A stretch of 51,737 nucleotides of DNA from Bacteroidota bacterium (GTDB taxonomy: Bacteria > Bacteroidota > Bacteroidia > AKYH767-A > OLB10): NCBI GenBank assembly GCA_025352785.1, contig JANXSD010000095.1, forward strand, positions 1 through 51,737. Reading direction: 5' to 3'. The notes below the pieces were generated by a model, which searched no databases, was not told the DNA's origin, and saw only the letters and a program-made list of their open reading frames with translations. Positions 7,307 to 16,117 of the stretch are shown here, in pieces. Numbering within the stretch: position 1 is the first letter of the stretch; the number at the start of each line of letters is the position of its first letter. A program made the position numbers and the translations under genes.

Positions 7307-7999
7307 TCAATTCTCCTCTCCCGACATATCTTCTTTTTGCGAAAGAGGCTTATGCTTTAGAACTTTTGCTTCAATATAGAATATAATTTCTTCAGAAATA
7401 TTTTTACATTGATCACCAACACGTTCCAGTTTACGAATCATACTTAAAGTATACAAACTTTGATTGATTCGATCGAGATGAGTTTTAATAAATTCTCCTA
7501 CCGATTCATTCGCATTCATGTTGATTTCGTCGAGAATCTCATCTTTTTTAAATACACTTCGAGCTAGTCGAGTATCTTCCAATTCAAAAGCTGTCATCAC
7601 ATCATTAAGAATGATGGAACTTGTATCAAACATTTCAATGAGTCGCGTTTTTTCTAATAATTCTTTTTCCAATTCCAGTTTAATGTTTAGCACAAACTGA
7701 CAAATGCCTTCTGCGATATCTCCAACACGTTCTAAGTTAGAATTGATTTTCATACAAGCAAGTACGAATCTTAAATCAACAGCGAGTGGATTTAAAAGTG
7801 CAATAATATTTTCGCAATCACGATCTATTTTTAACTCAAAACCATTTACACGTTTCTCATTTACCAAAACTTCTCTAGCAAGATCTTTATCAAATTGAAC
7901 TAATGCGTTTTTTGATTTATTTAATTGGGAAAGAACAAGCCCAAACATTTCGAGCATGTCGATTTTTAATTTTTTTAGTTCTGCGTCTAGATGTGTCAT
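7307..7999 (-). CDS. phoU: Phosphate signalling protein PhoU
   Basis: A 230-residue all-helical protein with two PhoU repeats of three helices; each repeat contains the metal-contacting E/DxxxD-type helix (DRDCENIIALLNP and RKLERVGDQCKNISE; also NSNLERVGDIAEGI). In known systems it couples PstB to PhoR, repressing the Pho regulon when phosphate is ample and limiting uptake. It is the last gene of the leftward phosphate operon, 55 bases after pstB, the usual pst order. No hairpin terminator with a T run is obvious after it. Confidence 0.93.
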   Translation of the reverse strand: MTHLDAELKKLKIDMLEMFGLVLSQLNKSKNALVQFDKDLAREVLVNEKRVNGFELKIDRDCENIIALLNPLAVDLRFVLACMKINSNLERVGDIAEGICQFVLNIKLELEKELLEKTRLIEMFDTSSIILNDVMTAFELEDTRLARSVFKKDEILDEINMNANESVGEFIKTHLDRINQSLYTLSMIRKLERVGDQCKNISEEIIFYIEAKVLKHKPLSQKEDMSGEEN

Positions 8000-8054: not shown

Positions 8055-8807
8055 TCAACCGAATCGTCCGGTGATATAATTTTGTGTTCGTATTTCAGTA
8101 GGATTGGTGAAGATCTTTTTAGTAGAATCATATTCTACTAATTCTCCGAGGTAAAAGAAGGCTGTTGTATCACTAACGCGACCTGCTTGCTGCATGTTAT
8201 GAGTTACAATCATGATCGTGTATTGTGATTTCAGTTCATAAATTAATTCTTCAATTTTTGCGGTTGAGATCGGGTCAAGTGCTGATGCAGGTTCATCCAT
8301 TAAAATTACCGAAGGTTCAATTGCTAATGCTCTTGCAATGCATAAACGTTGTTGTTGACCTCCAGATAATTCCATTGCAGACTTTTTCAATTTGTCTTTA
8401 ACTTCATCCCACAATGCAGCTTGTTTTAAGGAACGTTCCACACGTTCTTCAATAAATGTAGCATGTGAAATACCATTTACACGAAGTCCATAAGCGACAT
8501 TTTCAAAAATTGTTTTTGGAAATGGATTTGGTTTTTGAAAAACCATTCCAACACGTTTGCGTAACTCTTCAATACGCACTTCTTTACTGTAAATATCTTT
8601 TCCATCGATCAGGCAACTCCCTTCAATGCGAACACCATCAATGAGATCATTCATTCGATTAAACAAGCGTAAGAAAGTAGATTTCCCACATCCTGATGGT
8701 CCGATAAGTGCGGTAACTGTATTTTTTTCAATTGTCATATTAATTCCTTTCAAGGCGTGAAAGGAGCCATAATACAATTCAACATTTTTACTTTCTATCT
8801 TATGCAT
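8055..8807 (-). CDS. pstB: Phosphate ABC transporter ATP-binding protein
   Basis: A 250-residue ATPase that powers high-affinity phosphate import. Walker [10 protein letters not shown] (36-44), Q-loop VFQKPNPFP, signature LSGGQQQR (147-154), Walker [14 protein letters not shown] (168-180) and H-loop IVTHNM are intact. The ASALDPIST segment and the NRMNDLI region are characteristic of PstB. It lies 18 bases after pstA in the operon porin-pstS-pstS-pstC-pstA-pstB-phoU. Confidence 0.96.
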
Positions 8808-8825: not shown

Positions 8826-9692
8826 TTAATTAATTTTATATTTCTTTCCTAAATATCTTCTTAATGCATTCGCTGCAAGATTTAAAATCAATACAATTAA
8901 TATTAATACCACAGCTGTTCCATACGCCATGGATCTTGATTCTGCAATGTTAGTTCCACTTGTAGAAATCACATATAGGTGATATGGCAATGCCATTACT
9001 TGATCATACATACTTGTAGGAAGCTTCGGTAAAAAATAAGCTGCAACTGTAAATAAAATTGGTGCCGTCTCACCTGACACTCTTCCGATACTTAAAATTA
9101 ATCCGGTGATGATATTCGGCATTGCCATTGGCAAAGTAACTCTTCTGATGGTTTGTAATTTTGTTGCTCCTAATGCTAAACTTGCATGGCGAAATGAATT
9201 GTCAATTGCTTTTAATGATTCTTCGGTAGTACGTATGATGATTGGTAAAACGAGCAATCCAAGTGTTAATGACCCAGCAATGATAGAGTCACCAAAGCCC
9301 ATTCCGTTTACAAACAATGCCATCCCAAATAATCCAAAAACAATGGATGGAATACCTGCAAGATTGGAAGTCATTAATTTGATAAATCTTTTTATGAATC
9401 CTTCTTTCGCATATTCGTTCGTATAAATTCCAGACATTAATCCAATAGGAAATGCGAAAAGCATACTTCCAGCAATGAGATAAAGTGTTCCAATAATAGC
9501 CGGATAGATCCCTCCTTTTGTCATTCCATCTTCAGGCATTTTCGTGATAAAATCCCAATTCACAACCCCAATTCCTTTGGATAATATAAATCCTAAAATG
9601 GAAAATAGTATTCCAATAACACCAAGGCTAAGGATCCTAAAGACCCAGAATGCAGTATTTTCTGCTAATCGTTTACGAGTATTTATGTCCAT
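8826..9692 (-). CDS. pstA: Phosphate ABC transporter permease PstA
   Basis: A 288-residue inner-membrane permease with about six transmembrane segments. The cytoplasmic EAA loop, which couples to PstB, reads HASLALGATKLQTIRRV; LAGIPSIVFGLFGMALFV and VSGETAPILFT are conserved PstA segments. It starts five bases after the pstC stop, so translation is probably coupled. Confidence 0.95.
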   Translation of the reverse strand: MDINTRKRLAENTAFWVFRILSLGVIGILFSILGFILSKGIGVVNWDFITKMPEDGMTKGGIYPAIIGTLYLIAGSMLFAFPIGLMSGIYTNEYAKEGFIKRFIKLMTSNLAGIPSIVFGLFGMALFVNGMGFGDSIIAGSLTLGLLVLPIIIRTTEESLKAIDNSFRHASLALGATKLQTIRRVTLPMAMPNIITGLILSIGRVSGETAPILFTVAAYFLPKLPTSMYDQVMALPYHLYVISTSGTNIAESRSMAYGTAVVLILIVLILNLAANALRRYLGKKYKIN

Positions 9693-9697
9693 TGATT

Positions 9698-10906
9698 TTA
9701 TTTGGAATAATTACTTCTTTTTCTTGAAATATAATCTACCCACAAGTTGATAACTAAAGTAATGAGAAATAAGATGCATCCTAAAGCGAATAATGATTTG
9801 TAGTGAATACCATCTTTAGGCGCCTCACCTAATTCAGCAGCAATTGTTGCAGGAATAGTTCGAACAGGCTGTAATAATGAATGAGGCATAACGGCAGCAT
9901 TTCCAGTGACCATCAGTACAGCCATTGTTTCACCAATTGCACGACCAATACCTAAAATTGCAGCTGCAGAAATACCAGAAATAGAGTAGGGTACGGTAAC
10001 ACGCACAATAGTTTGCCAACGATTTGCGCCAAGCGCTAAACTTGCTTCTTTCATGGATCGAGGCGTGTTGCGAATTGCATCTTCAGATACGGTAATAATA
10101 GTTGGAAGTGCCATTATTGCCAGCAAGATACTTCCTGACAAAGCAGTTTCACCTACAGGTAAATTAAACGTTTTTTGCACCATAGGAACGATAACAATTA
10201 ATCCGAAAAATCCATAAACTACCGATGGTATTCCTGCTAGTAATTCTATGATTGGTTTGTAAATATTTCGCATCTTTTGATTTGCAACTTCTGCCAAATA
10301 AATAGCTGTTGCTAATCCAATTGGTAAGGCAATAACAATTGCAATTAAACTTACCCAAAGTGTTCCGAGAATAAGTGGTAATACACCAAGTTGTACAGCA
10401 GGATTTGCCGTTGGAAACCACTCTTCACCACTAATAAATTGCGTTAATGAAACGTTTTCTACCTGAACAATTTTTCCTTTAAAGTTTGGTGCAAGATATT
10501 TTTTTGAAAAGACAGCAATAATTCCTGGTGTGTTGCTCACCAATGAATCAATTTTATGTGGTAATAATTCGAAATTCGCTCCTATTTCATCATCAGAAAA
10601 ATAAGTGCTTAAGTCATTAAAAGTAAAAAGAATAATAGAATCTTTTTTTCCACCGAGCTCATCCCAGTGAGTAATTTTTTGATCAAAAATATTTTTGATT
10701 TGAGCAGATGAAATATGTTCAACTTTATTATTCGCACTAACAGTAATGATGTTATCTCCTTCTAATGGAGATTGATTGAAAAGCGAGATGCCTTCTTTAA
10801 AAAGAAAAATAGTAATCAGCAGTACAGTAAGTGTTGTTACCGTACTGCTGATCATGAGGGCACCCTCTATAATTCGCTCAATAAATTTTTTCACAAAGTC
10901 GTTCAA
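9698..10906 (-). CDS. pstC: Phosphate ABC transporter permease PstC with PstS-like periplasmic insert
   Basis: A 402-residue permease partner of PstA. Transmembrane segment 1 lies at about residues 17-37; the remaining segments begin near 173, with GIPSVVYGFFGL, the EAA loop EASLALGANRWQTI (287-300) and GRAIGETMAVLM all typical of PstC. Between them, residues about 51-150 form an extra periplasmic stretch. Its segment AQIKNIFDQKITHWDELGG (68-86) closely follows the two PstS proteins encoded upstream (EQLADIYTGKITNWKEVGG), and the downstream LSTYF and NTPGIIAVFSKKYL also track PstS (GTYEFF, TEGAIGYVGLAYE). The family is usually about 300-320 residues in E. coli. The start codon is TTG at 10906; a GTG at 10894 is an alternative. 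Confidence 0.93.
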   Translation of the reverse strand: MNDFVKKFIERIIEGALMISSTVTTLTVLLITIFLFKEGISLFNQSPLEGDNIITVSANNKVEHISSAQIKNIFDQKITHWDELGGKKDSIILFTFNDLSTYFSDDEIGANFELLPHKIDSLVSNTPGIIAVFSKKYLAPNFKGKIVQVENVSLTQFISGEEWFPTANPAVQLGVLPLILGTLWVSLIAIVIALPIGLATAIYLAEVANQKMRNIYKPIIELLAGIPSVVYGFFGLIVIVPMVQKTFNLPVGETALSGSILLAIMALPTIITVSEDAIRNTPRSMKEASLALGANRWQTIVRVTVPYSISGISAAAILGIGRAIGETMAVLMVTGNAAVMPHSLLQPVRTIPATIAAELGEAPKDGIHYKSLFALGCILFLITLVINLWVDYISRKRSNYSK

Positions 10907-10924: not shown

Positions 10925-11785
10925 TTATTTTTTCAAAGGGACATAGCCAACTTCAAGAACAGTTTTTTGCCCTTCTTCCGATAATATAAAATCCACAAAT
11001 GGCTTTATAATAGCTTCTTTATCAGCTGAGTAAAAATAGTAAAGTGGACGAGCAACAGGGTAAGTGCCATTTTGTGCTGCTGTTACAGATGGAAGTACAT
11101 ACGTCTTACCGGTATCATAAGAAATTGCAATCGGTTTAACTTCTTTGGTTTCATATGCTAAACCAACATAACCAATAGCACCTTCCGTTTGACTAACCGA
11201 TTGTACAATTGCACCCGTTGCTGGCATATTTAATACTGTTGACGCATAATTTTTTTTGTCCATTACATGTTCTTTGAAAAACTCATACGTACCTGATGAT
11301 GTTTCGCGAGCATAAACAGTCATTTTTAAATTAGCACCACCCACTTCTTTCCAGTTTGTTATTTTTCCAGTATAAATATCTGCCAATTGCTCGTGTGTTA
11401 ATTTATCGATTTTATTTTTCGGATTAACAATAACAGCGAGTGCATCTTTTGCAATTATTACTTCTTTCAAATTGGATTTTTTTTCATCAAACTTTACTTT
11501 TTCTTCCATCTTTAAGGGACGAGATGACATTGCCACATCGGTATTTCCATCCATCAATGCGGTGATCCCAACACCCGAACCACCACCTACAACAGTGATT
11601 GCTGCATCTGCATGTTTTTTCATATACTCTTCTGCTTCCTTTTGTGTAAGAGGCAAAACAGTATCACTTCCTTTAACAGTTATTGCTTTTGTCGTGTTTT
11701 CATTTCCTGATGCATCCTTTTTTTGTTCTTTTCCAGCACAGGACATTATTAATGTTAAAGAGAGAATTGCAAATATTTTTTTCAT
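10925..11785 (-). CDS. pstS: Phosphate-binding lipoprotein PstS
   Basis: A 286-residue phosphate-binding protein of the PstS/SphX type. The signal MKKIFAILSLTLIMSC ends in a lipobox, so the mature protein is lipid-anchored at Cys16. Phosphate-contacting regions are present: KGSDTVLPL, GGGSGVGITAL, MSSRPLKMEEK and ARETSSGTYEFF, then GAIGYVGLAYE. The frame extends six codons further to a TTG, but the ATG at 11785 gives a proper signal peptide and is preferred. It sits 19 bases after a close paralogue and 18 bases before pstC. Confidence 0.93.
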   Translation of the reverse strand: MKKIFAILSLTLIMSCAGKEQKKDASGNENTTKAITVKGSDTVLPLTQKEAEEYMKKHADAAITVVGGGSGVGITALMDGNTDVAMSSRPLKMEEKVKFDEKKSNLKEVIIAKDALAVIVNPKNKIDKLTHEQLADIYTGKITNWKEVGGANLKMTVYARETSSGTYEFFKEHVMDKKNYASTVLNMPATGAIVQSVSQTEGAIGYVGLAYETKEVKPIAISYDTGKTYVLPSVTAAQNGTYPVARPLYYFYSADKEAIIKPFVDFILSEEGQKTVLEVGYVPLKK

Positions 11786-11804
11786 AAGGTTTTTTTTATT
11801 CAAT

Positions 11805-12632
11805 TTATTTAAGTGTGATGTAACCTATATCTTCAACTATCTTTTGTCCTGACGGAGATAAAACATAATCTACAAAAGGCTTTACTAACTTTTCTACTTT
11901 TGTAGGATAATAAAAAAACAATGGTCGTACTACTGGATATGTTTTGTTTTTTGCAGTTTCAACTGACGGCTTAACAAATGTTTTTCCTTTATCATAAGAA
12001 ACAGCAATTGCTTTAACATCTTTTTCGAGATACGCTAAACCAACATAACCTATTGCACCTTTTGTTTGACTTACAGATTGGATAATTGCTCCTGTTGCTG
12101 GCATATTTAAAACGCTACTCGCATAATTTTTACGACTCATCACATGTTCTTTAAAAAATTCATACGTGCCAGAAGATGTTTCACGAGCATAAACTACAAT
12201 TTTCAAATCATCACCACCAACATCTTTCCAGTTTGTGATTTTACCTGTATAAATCCCTTCTAATTGTTCACGTGTAAGTTGTGAAACTTTATTACTAGAA
12301 CTCACAACAACAGCCAATGCATCGAAAGCGATTGTAACTTCTTTGTAAGCTCGTCCAGCATCTTGTAATTTCAATCGCTCATCCATTTTAATAGGACGAG
12401 ACGACATTGCGATATCCGTATTTCCTTCTATCAATGCAGCTATACCTACTCCAGAACCACCACCAACAACAGAGATACTTGCGCTCTTATTTGTTTTCAT
12501 ATATACTTCTGCTTCCTTCTGCGAAAGTGGAAGAACAGTATCACTGCCTTTTATGACTAATTTTTGTGCTTCAACAGAAATTTGTAAGGAAGTAAAGATA
12601 CCTATGAATAGAATTATTATGTTACGTTTCAT
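11805..12632 (-). CDS. Second phosphate-binding protein, PstS paralogue
   Basis: A 275-residue paralogue of the adjacent PstS, clearly alike along its whole length (shared KGSDTVLPLSQKEAE, GGGSGVGIAAL, MSSRPIKM, ARETSSGTYEFFKEHV and LNMPATGAI). It differs at the N-terminus: a type I signal peptide (MKRNIIILFIGIFTSLQISVEAQ) with no lipobox cysteine, so the mature protein should be free in the periplasm. The pair looks like a tandem duplication that split one role into a soluble and an anchored form, possibly differing in affinity. It follows the porin gene by 38 bases in the same operon. Confidence 0.9.
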   Translation of the reverse strand: MKRNIIILFIGIFTSLQISVEAQKLVIKGSDTVLPLSQKEAEVYMKTNKSASISVVGGGSGVGIAALIEGNTDIAMSSRPIKMDERLKLQDAGRAYKEVTIAFDALAVVVSSSNKVSQLTREQLEGIYTGKITNWKDVGGDDLKIVVYARETSSGTYEFFKEHVMSRKNYASSVLNMPATGAIIQSVSQTKGAIGYVGLAYLEKDVKAIAVSYDKGKTFVKPSVETAKNKTYPVVRPLFFYYPTKVEKLVKPFVDYVLSPSGQKIVEDIGYITLK

Positions 12633-12670: not shown

Positions 12671-13963
12671 TTAGAAGCGATATTGCAAACGAAGTGTGAA
12701 TACATTGTCTTTAATATCCGAAGTGTAGCCTTTCAATTTTGTAGATTCATTTTTTACAATATCGTAGTAAGCCATTAATTTTAAATTTTGATCAAACCTC
12801 CAAATTCCACCAATACCAATCGTTGTATATTGAATATCGGCTTCTGTCAGATTCGAATTCTGTAATCCTATTTTGTCACCACTTACATCTTTGTTTGGAT
12901 CGTACCAATCATACTTGAGTACAAATTGAGCTTTTGATTGTCCAATGTTTTGCAAGAAATATACATAACCACCTTTAAATTTGCGTTGAAAAATAGGTTT
13001 AGTTACCACTGCTGAAATACTCTTATTATCACTTGCTAGTCCAGGTTGTTCTCCGAAAATCATTTCAGCGCGTAGTGTAGTGATTCCAGGAAACCAATCA
13101 ATACTAAATTGAGCATCTACACCGTAATATTTGCGTTTTGTTGTTTCACCTTTATATTTCGCATTTTCTTGGATAAAGCGAACGGAATCATTTACAGTTT
13201 GTATGGAAAATAAAGTGTCATTATCTTGACGGAAACCACCATCATAATAAGATGCACCTAAAACAAATTTCAATTTCTCATTTAAGCTCGCCTTATTAAA
13301 TGTTAAATGACCTATGAAATCTTTTTTCTTATCAAATTCTTTAGCACCAAGACCTGTTCCATTAAATAATCCCGCATCCAATTTGATAAAATTCCAACGG
13401 GAAGTTTTTGGTGCTTGTATAGTTAACATGAAACCCATGTCACGTTCACCAGGAAAAATTATTTGCGACATTCTACCACGTTCTGGTGATTCACGATCAC
13501 TAGACGACATTGGCAATTCATTTCCAAATGGGCGATTAAATAATCCAGCAGTTAACGTAAATAATTGCAAATACGGATCGGTATATTTAAAATAAGCATC
13601 TTTAAGACTTACAGTACCCGCCTCTGTCGCATCTACCTGAAACACAAAACTTGAATGTGAGTTTGTCCACGTAGCTTTTAATCTTCCGCGGCGAATCAAA
13701 AACCGTTTGTCATCAAAAGAGGGAAAATCGCCACCTGCATAACTTTTAATTCCGGCAGAATCAGCCAATTGATATTGCGCTTGAATGTATCCAGAAATCT
13801 TCAGTTTCTTAAGAGATTCGACGTCTTGATACAACTTTGCAATAGTGCTTTGTGTGCTATCTTGTTGTTCAGGATCAACAATTTGTGCCATAATCGGCTG
13901 TGATACGATTAGTGATAGAAGGCATCCCGCTAATCCTAACCATTTGTTTTTCAGTAATTTCAT
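12671..13963 (-). CDS. Phosphate-selective porin, OprO/OprP-like
   Basis: A 430-residue outer-membrane beta-barrel with a signal peptide (cleavage near SQPIMAQ), a short helical stretch (STIAKLYQDVESLKKL) and then strands starting KISGYIQAQYQ. FLIRRGRLKATW, FVFQVDATEAG, LTAGLFNRPFGNE and the SDRESPERGRM segment are the porin O/P family signature, and it ends in an aromatic strand (LRLQYRF) as barrel proteins do. It is the first gene downstream of the PHO-box array and heads the pst operon, so the likely role is anion or phosphate passage across the outer membrane under starvation. Selectivity is inferred from context. Confidence 0.87.
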   Translation of the reverse strand: MKLLKNKWLGLAGCLLSLIVSQPIMAQIVDPEQQDSTQSTIAKLYQDVESLKKLKISGYIQAQYQLADSAGIKSYAGGDFPSFDDKRFLIRRGRLKATWTNSHSSFVFQVDATEAGTVSLKDAYFKYTDPYLQLFTLTAGLFNRPFGNELPMSSSDRESPERGRMSQIIFPGERDMGFMLTIQAPKTSRWNFIKLDAGLFNGTGLGAKEFDKKKDFIGHLTFNKASLNEKLKFVLGASYYDGGFRQDNDTLFSIQTVNDSVRFIQENAKYKGETTKRKYYGVDAQFSIDWFPGITTLRAEMIFGEQPGLASDNKSISAVVTKPIFQRKFKGGYVYFLQNIGQSKAQFVLKYDWYDPNKDVSGDKIGLQNSNLTEADIQYTTIGIGGIWRFDQNLKLMAYYDIVKNESTKLKGYTSDIKDNVFTLRLQYRF

Positions 13964-13999
13964 CAGTTATAGTTTTCTTTTCCGGCTGCAAAGAGATTA

Positions 14000-14043
14000 C
14001 TAAATTGTTACCTAGATTTTAACTAGATGTTATGTTAATGTTA
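14000..14043 (-). promoter_or_regulatory. Four-unit PHO-box-like array upstream of the porin-pst operon
   Basis: Read on the minus strand, four directly repeated 11-bp units follow without gap: TAACATTAACA, then TAACATCTAGT, then TAAAATCTAGG, then TAACAATTTAG. Each begins TAA(C/A)A. A -7-like box TCTCTTTG follows at 13996-13989, so the array occupies the position of the -33 region. OmpR/PhoB-family regulators bind direct repeats with 11-bp period (TTAACA-type for Bacillus PhoP, CTGTCAT-type for E. coli PhoB). The spacer 13964-14269 carries no gene; its remainder 14046-14207 shows nothing else clear. Confidence 0.65.
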
Positions 14044-14207
14044 AGAGTCGCTATATGGAGTAAAATCATTAAAAATTATTGAATGGAAGCAACATAGAAG
14101 TATTGTTTGGAAATTAGTTTTTGCAACGTATCCATTCGTAAGTTTGCTTTTCCAATAGAAAAAATTTAGAAACGTAATTAAATTCAATATTTTTAATAGG
14201 ATTGTCT

Positions 14208-14240
14208 TAAAGTATGATTAACATTTTAATAACATTCACA
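14208..14240 (+). promoter_or_regulatory. PHO-box-like repeats upstream of phoB
   Basis: On the plus strand, TAACATTTTAA (14219-14229) and TAACATTCACA (14230-14240) are adjacent 11-bp repeats with the same core as the porin-facing array; a weaker unit TAAAGTATGAT (14208-14218) precedes them in phase. GAACTTTG at 14244-14251 could be a -7 box with one mismatch. This suggests that PhoB activates its own gene. Confidence 0.55.
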
Positions 14241-14269
14241 ATTGAACTTTGTAGCGAATAAAAAAGAGC

Positions 14270-14956
14270 ATGGAGAATAATACGATTAAGATCCTATTGG
14301 TTGATGATGAATTAGACATACTCGAATTTATGGAGTATAATCTCAAGAAGGAAGGTTATCAAGTTTTGCTTGCGAAAAATGGTAAAGAGGCAGTGGATAT
14401 TGCTAAGCGGGAGAAACCCCATCTTGTTATTATGGATATTATGATGCCTGTGATGGATGGAATTGAAGCATGCCGACAGATTAGAGAGATTCCCGAACTT
14501 AAAAGTACAATTATAACCTTTTTAACTGCTCGAAATGAGGAGTATTCACAGATTGCTGGTTTTGATGTTGGCGCTGATGATTATATTTCTAAACCAATCA
14601 AGCCTAGAATAATGCTTAGTAGAATCAAAGCATTATTACGTAGAATAAATGGAAGTGAAATAAGTGATAATACAAGTATACAGATTGGTAGTTTAAAAAT
14701 TGACCGAGAAAGTTATTTGGTGTATAAGGACGAGCTGCCAATATCCTTCCCAAGAAAAGAATTTGAGTTATTATCATTACTCACTTCCAAACCAGGAAAA
14801 GTTTTTACTAGAGAAGATATTCTGGCTCGTGTGTGGGGAACTGAAATTATTGTTGGCGATCGTACGATAGATGTACATATTCGTAAAATTCGCGAGAAGT
14901 TGGGTGATGAATTGATAAAAACAATAAAAGGAATTGGGTATAAGTTCGACATCTAA
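14270..14956 (+). CDS. phoB: PhoB-like response regulator
   Basis: A 228-residue OmpR/PhoB-family regulator: receiver domain (acidic pocket Asp12-Asp13, phosphoacceptor Asp56 in VIMDIMMP, Thr86, Lys108 in ISKPI) followed by a winged-helix DNA-binding domain (about 130-228) with FPRKEFELLSLL and VGDRTIDVHIRKIREKLG. The assignment to phosphate control rests on context: it is divergent from the porin-pst-phoU operon, shares a control region with 11-bp repeats, and is followed 120 bases later by a matching kinase gene. Family alone would allow another stimulus. Confidence 0.88.
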   Translation: MENNTIKILLVDDELDILEFMEYNLKKEGYQVLLAKNGKEAVDIAKREKPHLVIMDIMMPVMDGIEACRQIREIPELKSTIITFLTARNEEYSQIAGFDVGADDYISKPIKPRIMLSRIKALLRRINGSEISDNTSIQIGSLKIDRESYLVYKDELPISFPRKEFELLSLLTSKPGKVFTREDILARVWGTEIIVGDRTIDVHIRKIREKLGDELIKTIKGIGYKFDI

Positions 14957-15076: not shown

Positions 15077-16117
15077 ATGAAACCTACTACTTTAGCAATA
15101 GCAACATCTTTATTGATTTCGGTAATAATTGCCGTCCTCAATTGTATTTTGTTTTATTCCTTGTCGATTATTGTTCCATCGTATTTCGTTATAATAATTT
15201 CATTGTGTGCTTTTTTATTGATAGGATTTACTTTCCGTTTTTTATACCATCGATACATCATTACTAATCTCAACCAAATCCATAAAAATATTTTGCGATT
15301 ACGGTATCCAAATGAGCCATTTCGAACTTTTAGAGAAGGTGAGCGAGATATCACGTCAGAAATAAATCAAATTTTAATTGATTGGAGCAATGAGTCGCGT
15401 GATGAAATTGATCAGTTGAAACAAACAGAAAATTATCGTCGTGAATTTTTAAGTAATGTTTCACACGAATTAAAAACACCCATATTTAGTATACAAGGTT
15501 ATGTACATACTTTGATTGATGGAGGTATTGATGATGCCGATGTTAATGTTTTATATTTAAATAAGGCAAGTAAAGGTATTGATCGACTAATAAGTATTGT
15601 TGATGATCTTGAATCTATTTCGAAATTAGAAGCTGGTGAATTAAATATCGAGCAACGCACGTTTGATTTTAATGAGCTCGTTCGCGAAGTAATTGAATCG
15701 CTTGAAATGCAAGGACGGGATCGTAATGTGAAAGTAGTTTTAAATAGCCCGAATGAAAAGCAACCTTATGTATATGCTGATAAGGATTTAATTCGGCAGG
15801 TGTTAGTGAATTTAATTGTTAATTCTATCAAGTACGGAAAGAAAGACGGGAAAACAGAAGTGCGATTTATGGATGTTGACGATAAAATTATTGTTGATGT
15901 TGCAGATGATGGTATTGGTATTGAAAAGCAACATTTACCGAGGTTATTTGAGCGTTTTTATCGAGTAGATAAAAGTAGATCTCGAGATCAAGGTGGAACT
16001 GGTTTAGGATTAGCGATTGTGAAACATATTATTGAGGCACATCAACAACATATTTCGGTGTGTAGTGAATATGGAAATGGAACAATATTTACTTTTTCTT
16101 TGAAGAAGAGTAAGTGA
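15077..16117 (+). CDS. phoR: PhoR-like sensor histidine kinase
   Basis: A 346-residue membrane kinase. Two transmembrane helices (about 9-30 and 34-56) leave almost no periplasmic loop, so it probably does not bind phosphate directly but senses through the Pst transporter and PhoU. No PAS domain is evident, unlike E. coli PhoR. HisKA carries the phosphorylated His130 in FLSNVSHELKTPIFSIQGY; the ATPase domain has N box LIVNSIKYGKKDG, G1 DVADDGIGIE, F-box FERFYRVD and G2 GGTGLGLAIVKHI. It lies 120 bases after phoB, and a strong terminator follows. Confidence 0.87.
   Translation: MKPTTLAIATSLLISVIIAVLNCILFYSLSIIVPSYFVIIISLCAFLLIGFTFRFLYHRYIITNLNQIHKNILRLRYPNEPFRTFREGERDITSEINQILIDWSNESRDEIDQLKQTENYRREFLSNVSHELKTPIFSIQGYVHTLIDGGIDDADVNVLYLNKASKGIDRLISIVDDLESISKLEAGELNIEQRTFDFNELVREVIESLEMQGRDRNVKVVLNSPNEKQPYVYADKDLIRQVLVNLIVNSIKYGKKDGKTEVRFMDVDDKIIVDVADDGIGIEKQHLPRLFERFYRVDKSRSRDQGGTGLGLAIVKHIIEAHQQHISVCSEYGNGTIFTFSLKKSK

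Follow-up and report, generated by a model that had tools for sequence, protein, structure and literature searches.

The phosphate locus described here lies in a stretch of 51,737 nucleotides (the window) from a member of the Bacteroidota, and its features are collected in Table 1. On the minus strand, an array of 11-bp repeats is followed by an operon in the order porin, pstS, pstS, pstC, pstA, pstB, phoU, and a PhoB-type regulator and a PhoR-type kinase are encoded divergently, with the regulator gene 226 bp from the array on the opposite strand. The porin shows no direct Pfam match; it is 23% identical over its full length (BLASTP, E=3e-10) to the protein of locus L254, which matches Porin_O_P at 2e-30. 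The regulator combines a receiver with an OmpR-type winged helix, has a partner sensor kinase and is encoded beside pst, and it is PhoB by context. Its two best NCBIfam models are TIGR02154 and NF053854 (Bacteroides PhoB), and both scores, 215.3 and 211.4 bits, are below the curated cut-offs of 296.2 and 270 bits, respectively.

Two further observations concern the transporter genes. A second PstS has also been found near the operon in the genomes G025 and G028. Residues 53–110 of PstC resemble part of PstS (PBP_like_2, 5e-5; TIGR02136, 1.7e-5; both under cut-off), and in many relatives a PstS search likewise hits this part of the pstC frame, as though the permease had incorporated a piece of PstS.

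Table 1. Genes and repeat units of the porin-pst and phoB region (window coordinates)
Feature	Position	Strand	Remarks
phoU	7307..7999	-	TIGR02135 over cut-off
pstB	8055..8807	-	TIGR00972 over cut-off
pstA	8826..9692	-	TIGR00974 over cut-off
pstC	9698..10906	-	TIGR02138 over cut-off
pstS, second tandem copy	10925..11803	-	TIGR02136 over cut-off; 67% identical to first copy
pstS, first copy	11805..12632	-	TIGR02136 over cut-off
Outer-membrane porin, first gene of operon	12671..13963	-	distant relative of Porin_O_P
Fifth in-phase unit, TAATCTCTTTG	13989..13999	-	contains -7-like TCTCTTTG; TTTG at 13992-13989
Unit 4, TAACAATTTAG	14000..14010	-	strong half of putative proximal dimer site; TAAC conserved in relatives
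Unit 3, TAAAATCTAGG	14011..14021	-	weak half of putative proximal dimer site; degenerate in relatives
Unit 2, TAACATCTAGT	14022..14032	-	downstream half of putative distal dimer site; most conserved unit, TAAC[A]T
Unit 1, TAACATTAACA	14033..14043	-	upstream half of putative distal dimer site; TTAAC conserved in 23 aligned porin/pst promoters
Probable two-unit PHO box of phoB, TAACATTTTAA TAACATTCACA	14219..14240	+	register conserved at phoB of relatives
Third in-phase unit of phoB promoter, ATTGAACTTTG	14241..14251	+	-7-like TTTG at 14248-14251, 18 bp before phoB ATG
phoB-type response regulator	14270..14956	+	receiver and winged helix (Pfam Response_reg, Trans_reg_C)
phoR-type sensor kinase	15077..16117	+	HisKA, HATPase_c; best models PnpS/PhoR, below cut-off

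The sequence-only reading of this DNA had described four contiguous 11-bp units in exact phase, and the letters at 14043-14000 of the minus strand bear this out. The core of unit 1 is TTAACA, since a T stands 5' of it at 14044. When 100 second-order Markov shuffles of the window were searched on both strands, none contained four in-phase TAA[AC]A units, and three such units had a mean of 0.01 per shuffle. The array had also been said to end just before a -7-like box. Such a box is indeed present, but its TTTG closes a fifth 11-bp unit in a register that is conserved, and ends 25 bp upstream of the porin ATG. A copy of the element that had gone unmentioned is found at the phoB promoter (14219-14251, plus strand), with its TTTG in exactly the register to the dimer that the pst array shows between TTTG and units 3 and 4.

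Searching the whole 3.46-Mb genome for TAACAn6TAACAn10-40TTTG has given five matches, two of which are the pst array and the phoB promoter, while the other three overlap reading frames. A further candidate (TAAAATCTAGGTAACAT) has been rejected, as it lies inside a reading frame and is without TTTG. Three in-phase units in the porin-pstS gap (12658-12631, minus strand) are taken as chance; they reach the start of pstS and have no -7 element downstream. The Pit operon of this genome has no convincing box, just a weak dimer without a phased TTTG, and a gene for a Na/Pi cotransporter was not found in the genome. The regulon of the organism beyond the porin-pst and phoB arrays is thus unproven, with only these two passing the strict pattern.

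The conservation of the element has been examined in 41 genomes by locating the orthologues of PhoB, porin and PstS and taking the upstream DNA in gene orientation. A promoter was counted when no more than two of the 12 defined positions of TTAACA-n5-TTAACA were mismatched and the gap to a TTTG was 13, 24 or 35. In the family and order, 42 of the 62 upstream regions of phoB, porin and pstS (16/28, 18/25 and 8/9, respectively) qualify, compared to 0.08 expected from dinucleotide shuffles; the criterion was fixed after the first promoters of the same set had been inspected, and the class-wide test described below is the cleaner one. By the terms of the sequence-only reading, a lack of conserved 11-bp units upstream of porin/pst orthologues would have refuted it. 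This check did not refute it: at porin and pstS the dimer with a phased TTTG is found in 26 of 34 regions (~0.03 expected). Some phoB promoters, in the Flavobacteriaceae and in several families of the order, show no clear box.

The arrangement of the units is conserved along with their sequence. The spacing of TTAACA-like hexamers in the relatives peaks at 11 (53 cases), 22 (24) and 33 (24) over a background of ~4, and the gap from the dimer to the TTTG peaks at 13 (21), 24 (35) and 35 (27), with every other value at 4 or below. Twenty-three porin/pst promoters align without gaps from unit 1 to the TTTG. In all of them, as in the window, the distance from the end of the TTTG to the start of unit 1 is exactly 55 bp, and a C follows the TTTG in 21 of the 23. 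The four-unit description needs qualification: the window has four units, but in the relatives unit 3 is degenerate, and the conserved part of what is a tetrad plus a fifth 11-bp unit ending in TTTG(C) consists of units 1, 2 and 4 and the TTTGC. Across 42 genomes of the order, the pattern TTAACATNNNNTTAACAN{10,40}TTTG matches 13 times, 12 of them in phase, compared to three matches for a reversed-pattern control.

Extending the same search to 295 genomes of the class gives 135 matches, with gap peaks again at 13 (16), 24 (25) and 35 (11). In total, 52 of the 135 are in phase, where 13 would be expected (P=4e-19). When only one match per family and gap is retained, 35 of 100 are in phase, spread over 26 families (P=6e-12). 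A control with 12-bp repeat spacing finds 40 matches across the class and no peaks at 13, 24 or 35. Two families prefer a gap that is one base off, f14 at 25 and f10 at 23.

The genes behind these matches have been identified by retrieving the DNA 3' of most of them and using BLAST and Pfam to assign the reading frame that comes first. Phosphate genes follow 40 of 63 in-phase matches but only 2 of 36 out-of-phase matches (Fisher, 4e-9). Since the order-level matches overlap loci already examined, a separate count was made without them, in which phosphate genes follow 30 of 52 in-phase and 2 of 36 out-of-phase matches (3e-7). The in-phase set includes DUF47/PhoU_div (14), Porin_O_P-type porins (8), PstS (5, plus one pst locus), Na/Pi cotransporters of the Na_Pi_cotrans type (5), PHO4/Pit transporters (4) and PhoB (3), while the out-of-phase matches otherwise precede unrelated genes, such as those for K+ uptake, LpxD and aldehyde dehydrogenase. 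Six in-phase boxes precede TonB-dependent receptors, and Flavobacterium johnsoniae induces receptors of a similar kind when Pi is depleted (PMC8115612).

Other genes were also noted behind such dimers. A gene for polyphosphate kinase lies behind a TTAACA dimer in two members of family f44, at a gap of 14 (L284, and L286 as judged by similar length and position), and this gene is likely to be a member of the phosphate regulon, one base out of phase. In-phase boxes of family f49 (L268, L270 and L235) are followed by genes for large secreted proteins of 846–869 amino acids with a Por secretion tail, which are possibly secreted phosphatases or nucleases. Thioredoxin-like DUF5106/DUF4369 proteins, with no obvious phosphate role, are encoded behind in-phase dimers at L234 and L250, which belong to two families.

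A PHO box contains two or more direct repeats of ~11 bp that share a conserved core, belongs to promoters of phosphate-regulon genes and adjoins the core promoter, where it stands in for the -35/-33 element; it is bound by phosphorylated PhoB or PhoP and confers induction when phosphate is scarce. The features that can be read from the sequence are all present here: four such repeats at pst and two at phoB, the promoters of porin-pst and phoB with a class-wide association to phosphate genes, and a TTTG at a fixed gap of 13, 24 or 35 bp. We therefore consider the array very probably (roughly 92%) a PHO box, through which the PhoB-type regulator would activate the porin-pst operon and phoB itself. 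Points against this reading are the sub-cut-off scores of the regulator, the -7 box of the porin promoter, which reads TCTCTTTG and not TAnnTTTG, the lack of a clear box at some phoB promoters and the finding of just two arrays under the strict pattern in the genome of the window. The sequence-only reading had already taken the array at the head of the pst operon for a PHO box, a view that is now supported by the conservation at porin/pst promoters and by the in-phase copies preceding phosphate genes across the class.

Other explanations of the repeats have been weighed against the PHO box. A chance arrangement in A+T-rich intergenic DNA might be suspected from the loose dimer pattern, which, with two mismatches allowed, is not enriched over the whole window (14 matches compared to 16 expected); all of the conservation and phase statistics refute it, and its probability is negligible. 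It is also highly improbable that the repeats are an A+T-rich upstream promoter element, UP-like or intrinsically curved, that serves no specific regulator. The units are A+T-rich and helically phased, as such an element would be, but the conservation of one particular core, TTAACA, in steps of 11.0 bp, the degenerate unit 3, the association with phosphate genes and the empty result with the 12-bp-spaced control all argue for a regulator site.

The identity of that regulator deserves closer attention, since the box could serve the phosphate response while being bound by another regulator of the OmpR/PhoB family than the adjoining PhoB. A second regulator, 37–43% identical, is encoded beside the porin-pst operon in several genomes of the order; in G031, G028 and G038, for example, the contig with the porin holds two regulator genes. 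In one genus (g5; L302-L305), the porin-pstSCAB-phoU operon is followed by a different PhoB/PhoR-type pair, whose regulator is 37–44% identical and is the only pst-linked one. Its recognition helix reads HIVRLRKKLG (HITRLRKKLE in one case) compared to HIRKIREKLG in PhoB, and the porin-pst promoters of the genus carry in-register repeats with the core TGTAAY in the same register to the TTTG. On the other hand, PhoB is the only regulator at the window locus and its own promoter bears the same box. Where the genome has a PhoB orthologue (at least 55% identity), porin/pst promoters bear TTAACA arrays in 26 of 28 cases, compared to 0 of 6 where it has none (p=2e-5), a contrast that needs caution as four of the six come from g5. 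Taken together, we regard binding by a regulator other than PhoB as unlikely.

The contrast does not amount to a clean rule by which no PhoB orthologue means no array, given the diverged TGTAAY units in register in g5. Because this genus combines the TGTAAY core in the same register with a different regulator, the core of the box and the regulator seem to have shifted in concert, with the geometry to the TTTG left unchanged. A frame break at 8253 to 8291 interrupts the PhoB-like gene of one genome (G011, L304:7840-8506), which points to either an assembly error or a pseudogene.

Returning to PhoB as the presumed activator at the PHO box, we infer its role as ligand, the dimer stoichiometry, activation and the contact with the sigma factor. 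At low phosphate, PhoR would phosphorylate PhoB, and two phosphorylated dimers, each covering 22 bp, would bind head-to-tail to the four units upstream of the porin-pst operon, while a single dimer on the two units before phoB would give positive autoregulation. The bound PhoB would cover the place of the -33 element and recruit the sigma-ABfr RNA polymerase to a -7 box of the TTTG type. This box lies a whole number of 11-bp units downstream, with a gap of 13, 24 or 35 bp after the second TTAACA of the dimer site, so that PhoB would be kept on the same helix face as the polymerase.

In the gap-13 class, the dimer would leave 9 bp to TAnnTTTG, and the TA is common among the class-wide gap-13 matches (T in 12/16, A in 11/16). 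With gaps of 24 and 35, the dimer would sit one or two repeat units further upstream, and at pst a weaker second dimer may fill the space. The -7 consensus of the Bacteroidota sigma-ABfr is TAnnTTTG (PMC7366714). At both promoters of the window the TTTG is present and the upstream TA is absent (TCTCTTTG and TGAACTTTG), and -7 boxes without TA suit an activator-dependent promoter. A broader proposal, to which we give slightly better than even odds, is that Bacteroidota PhoB activates from quantised positions, with a single dimer that precedes the -7 TTTG by exactly one, two or three units of 11 bp and sometimes an unoccupied unit between them, and that the core changes (TTAACA to TGTAAY) when the regulator is replaced while the register to the TTTG remains fixed.

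The element can be compared with the PHO boxes of well-studied systems. In E. coli, the box replaces the -35 element, with two boxes at pstS and one at phoA, and the final repeat is separated from the -10 element by ~10 bp, compared to the 9 bp before TAnnTTTG in the gap-13 class here. As in the window, the E. coli boxes lie upstream of pst and of phoB itself, beside the core promoter. However, the E. coli box stands beside TATAAT and not beside the Bacteroidota -7 TTTG box, and in the present system the dimer may be shifted upstream by one or two additional 11-bp units. The core had been called unlike the E. coli CTGTCAT, which is true only in part: TTAACAT differs from it but shares four of seven positions (T2, C5, A6 and T7). 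The core of the Bacillus subtilis PhoP box is TTAACA, the same as here, but phylum, regulator and sigma factor are different, and we know of no Bacillus counterpart of the fixed phase to the TTTG. PHO boxes in other phyla consist of two 11-nt direct repeats (PMC4415409), and the periodicity of the present units agrees with the 11-nt repeats of both the Bacillus box and the E. coli box, the latter bound head-to-tail (PMC4415409).

Within the phylum of the window, B. fragilis PhoB (BF1576) binds the pstC promoter in EMSA and is needed for pstC expression, with the binding site unmapped (PMC3547664). In Flavobacterium johnsoniae, also of the Bacteroidota, Pi depletion induces phoB, phosphatases and TonB/Sus-type transporters, and no PHO box has been reported (PMC8115612); TonB receptors are likewise behind several of the in-phase boxes described above. 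No Bacteroidota PHO-box consensus was found in the open-access papers searched, while subscription journals and regulon databases may have one. The kind of element is known, a PHO box; what appears to be new is the core of this lineage and the phasing of its repeats with the -7 box of the Bacteroidota.

Members of the Bacteroidota play a major part in recycling phosphorus in soil, sea and gut. Studies of their phosphate regulon have so far dealt with its expression. If validated, the consensus TTAACATnnnnTTAACA with a TTTG at 13, 24 or 35 bp would make phosphate regulons predictable from sequence across the phylum, including the Pit/DUF47, Na/Pi, porin and TonB-receptor genes. It would also offer a model for how an activator acts at the unusual -7/-33 promoter of the Bacteroidota, whose -33 element has proved hard to find.
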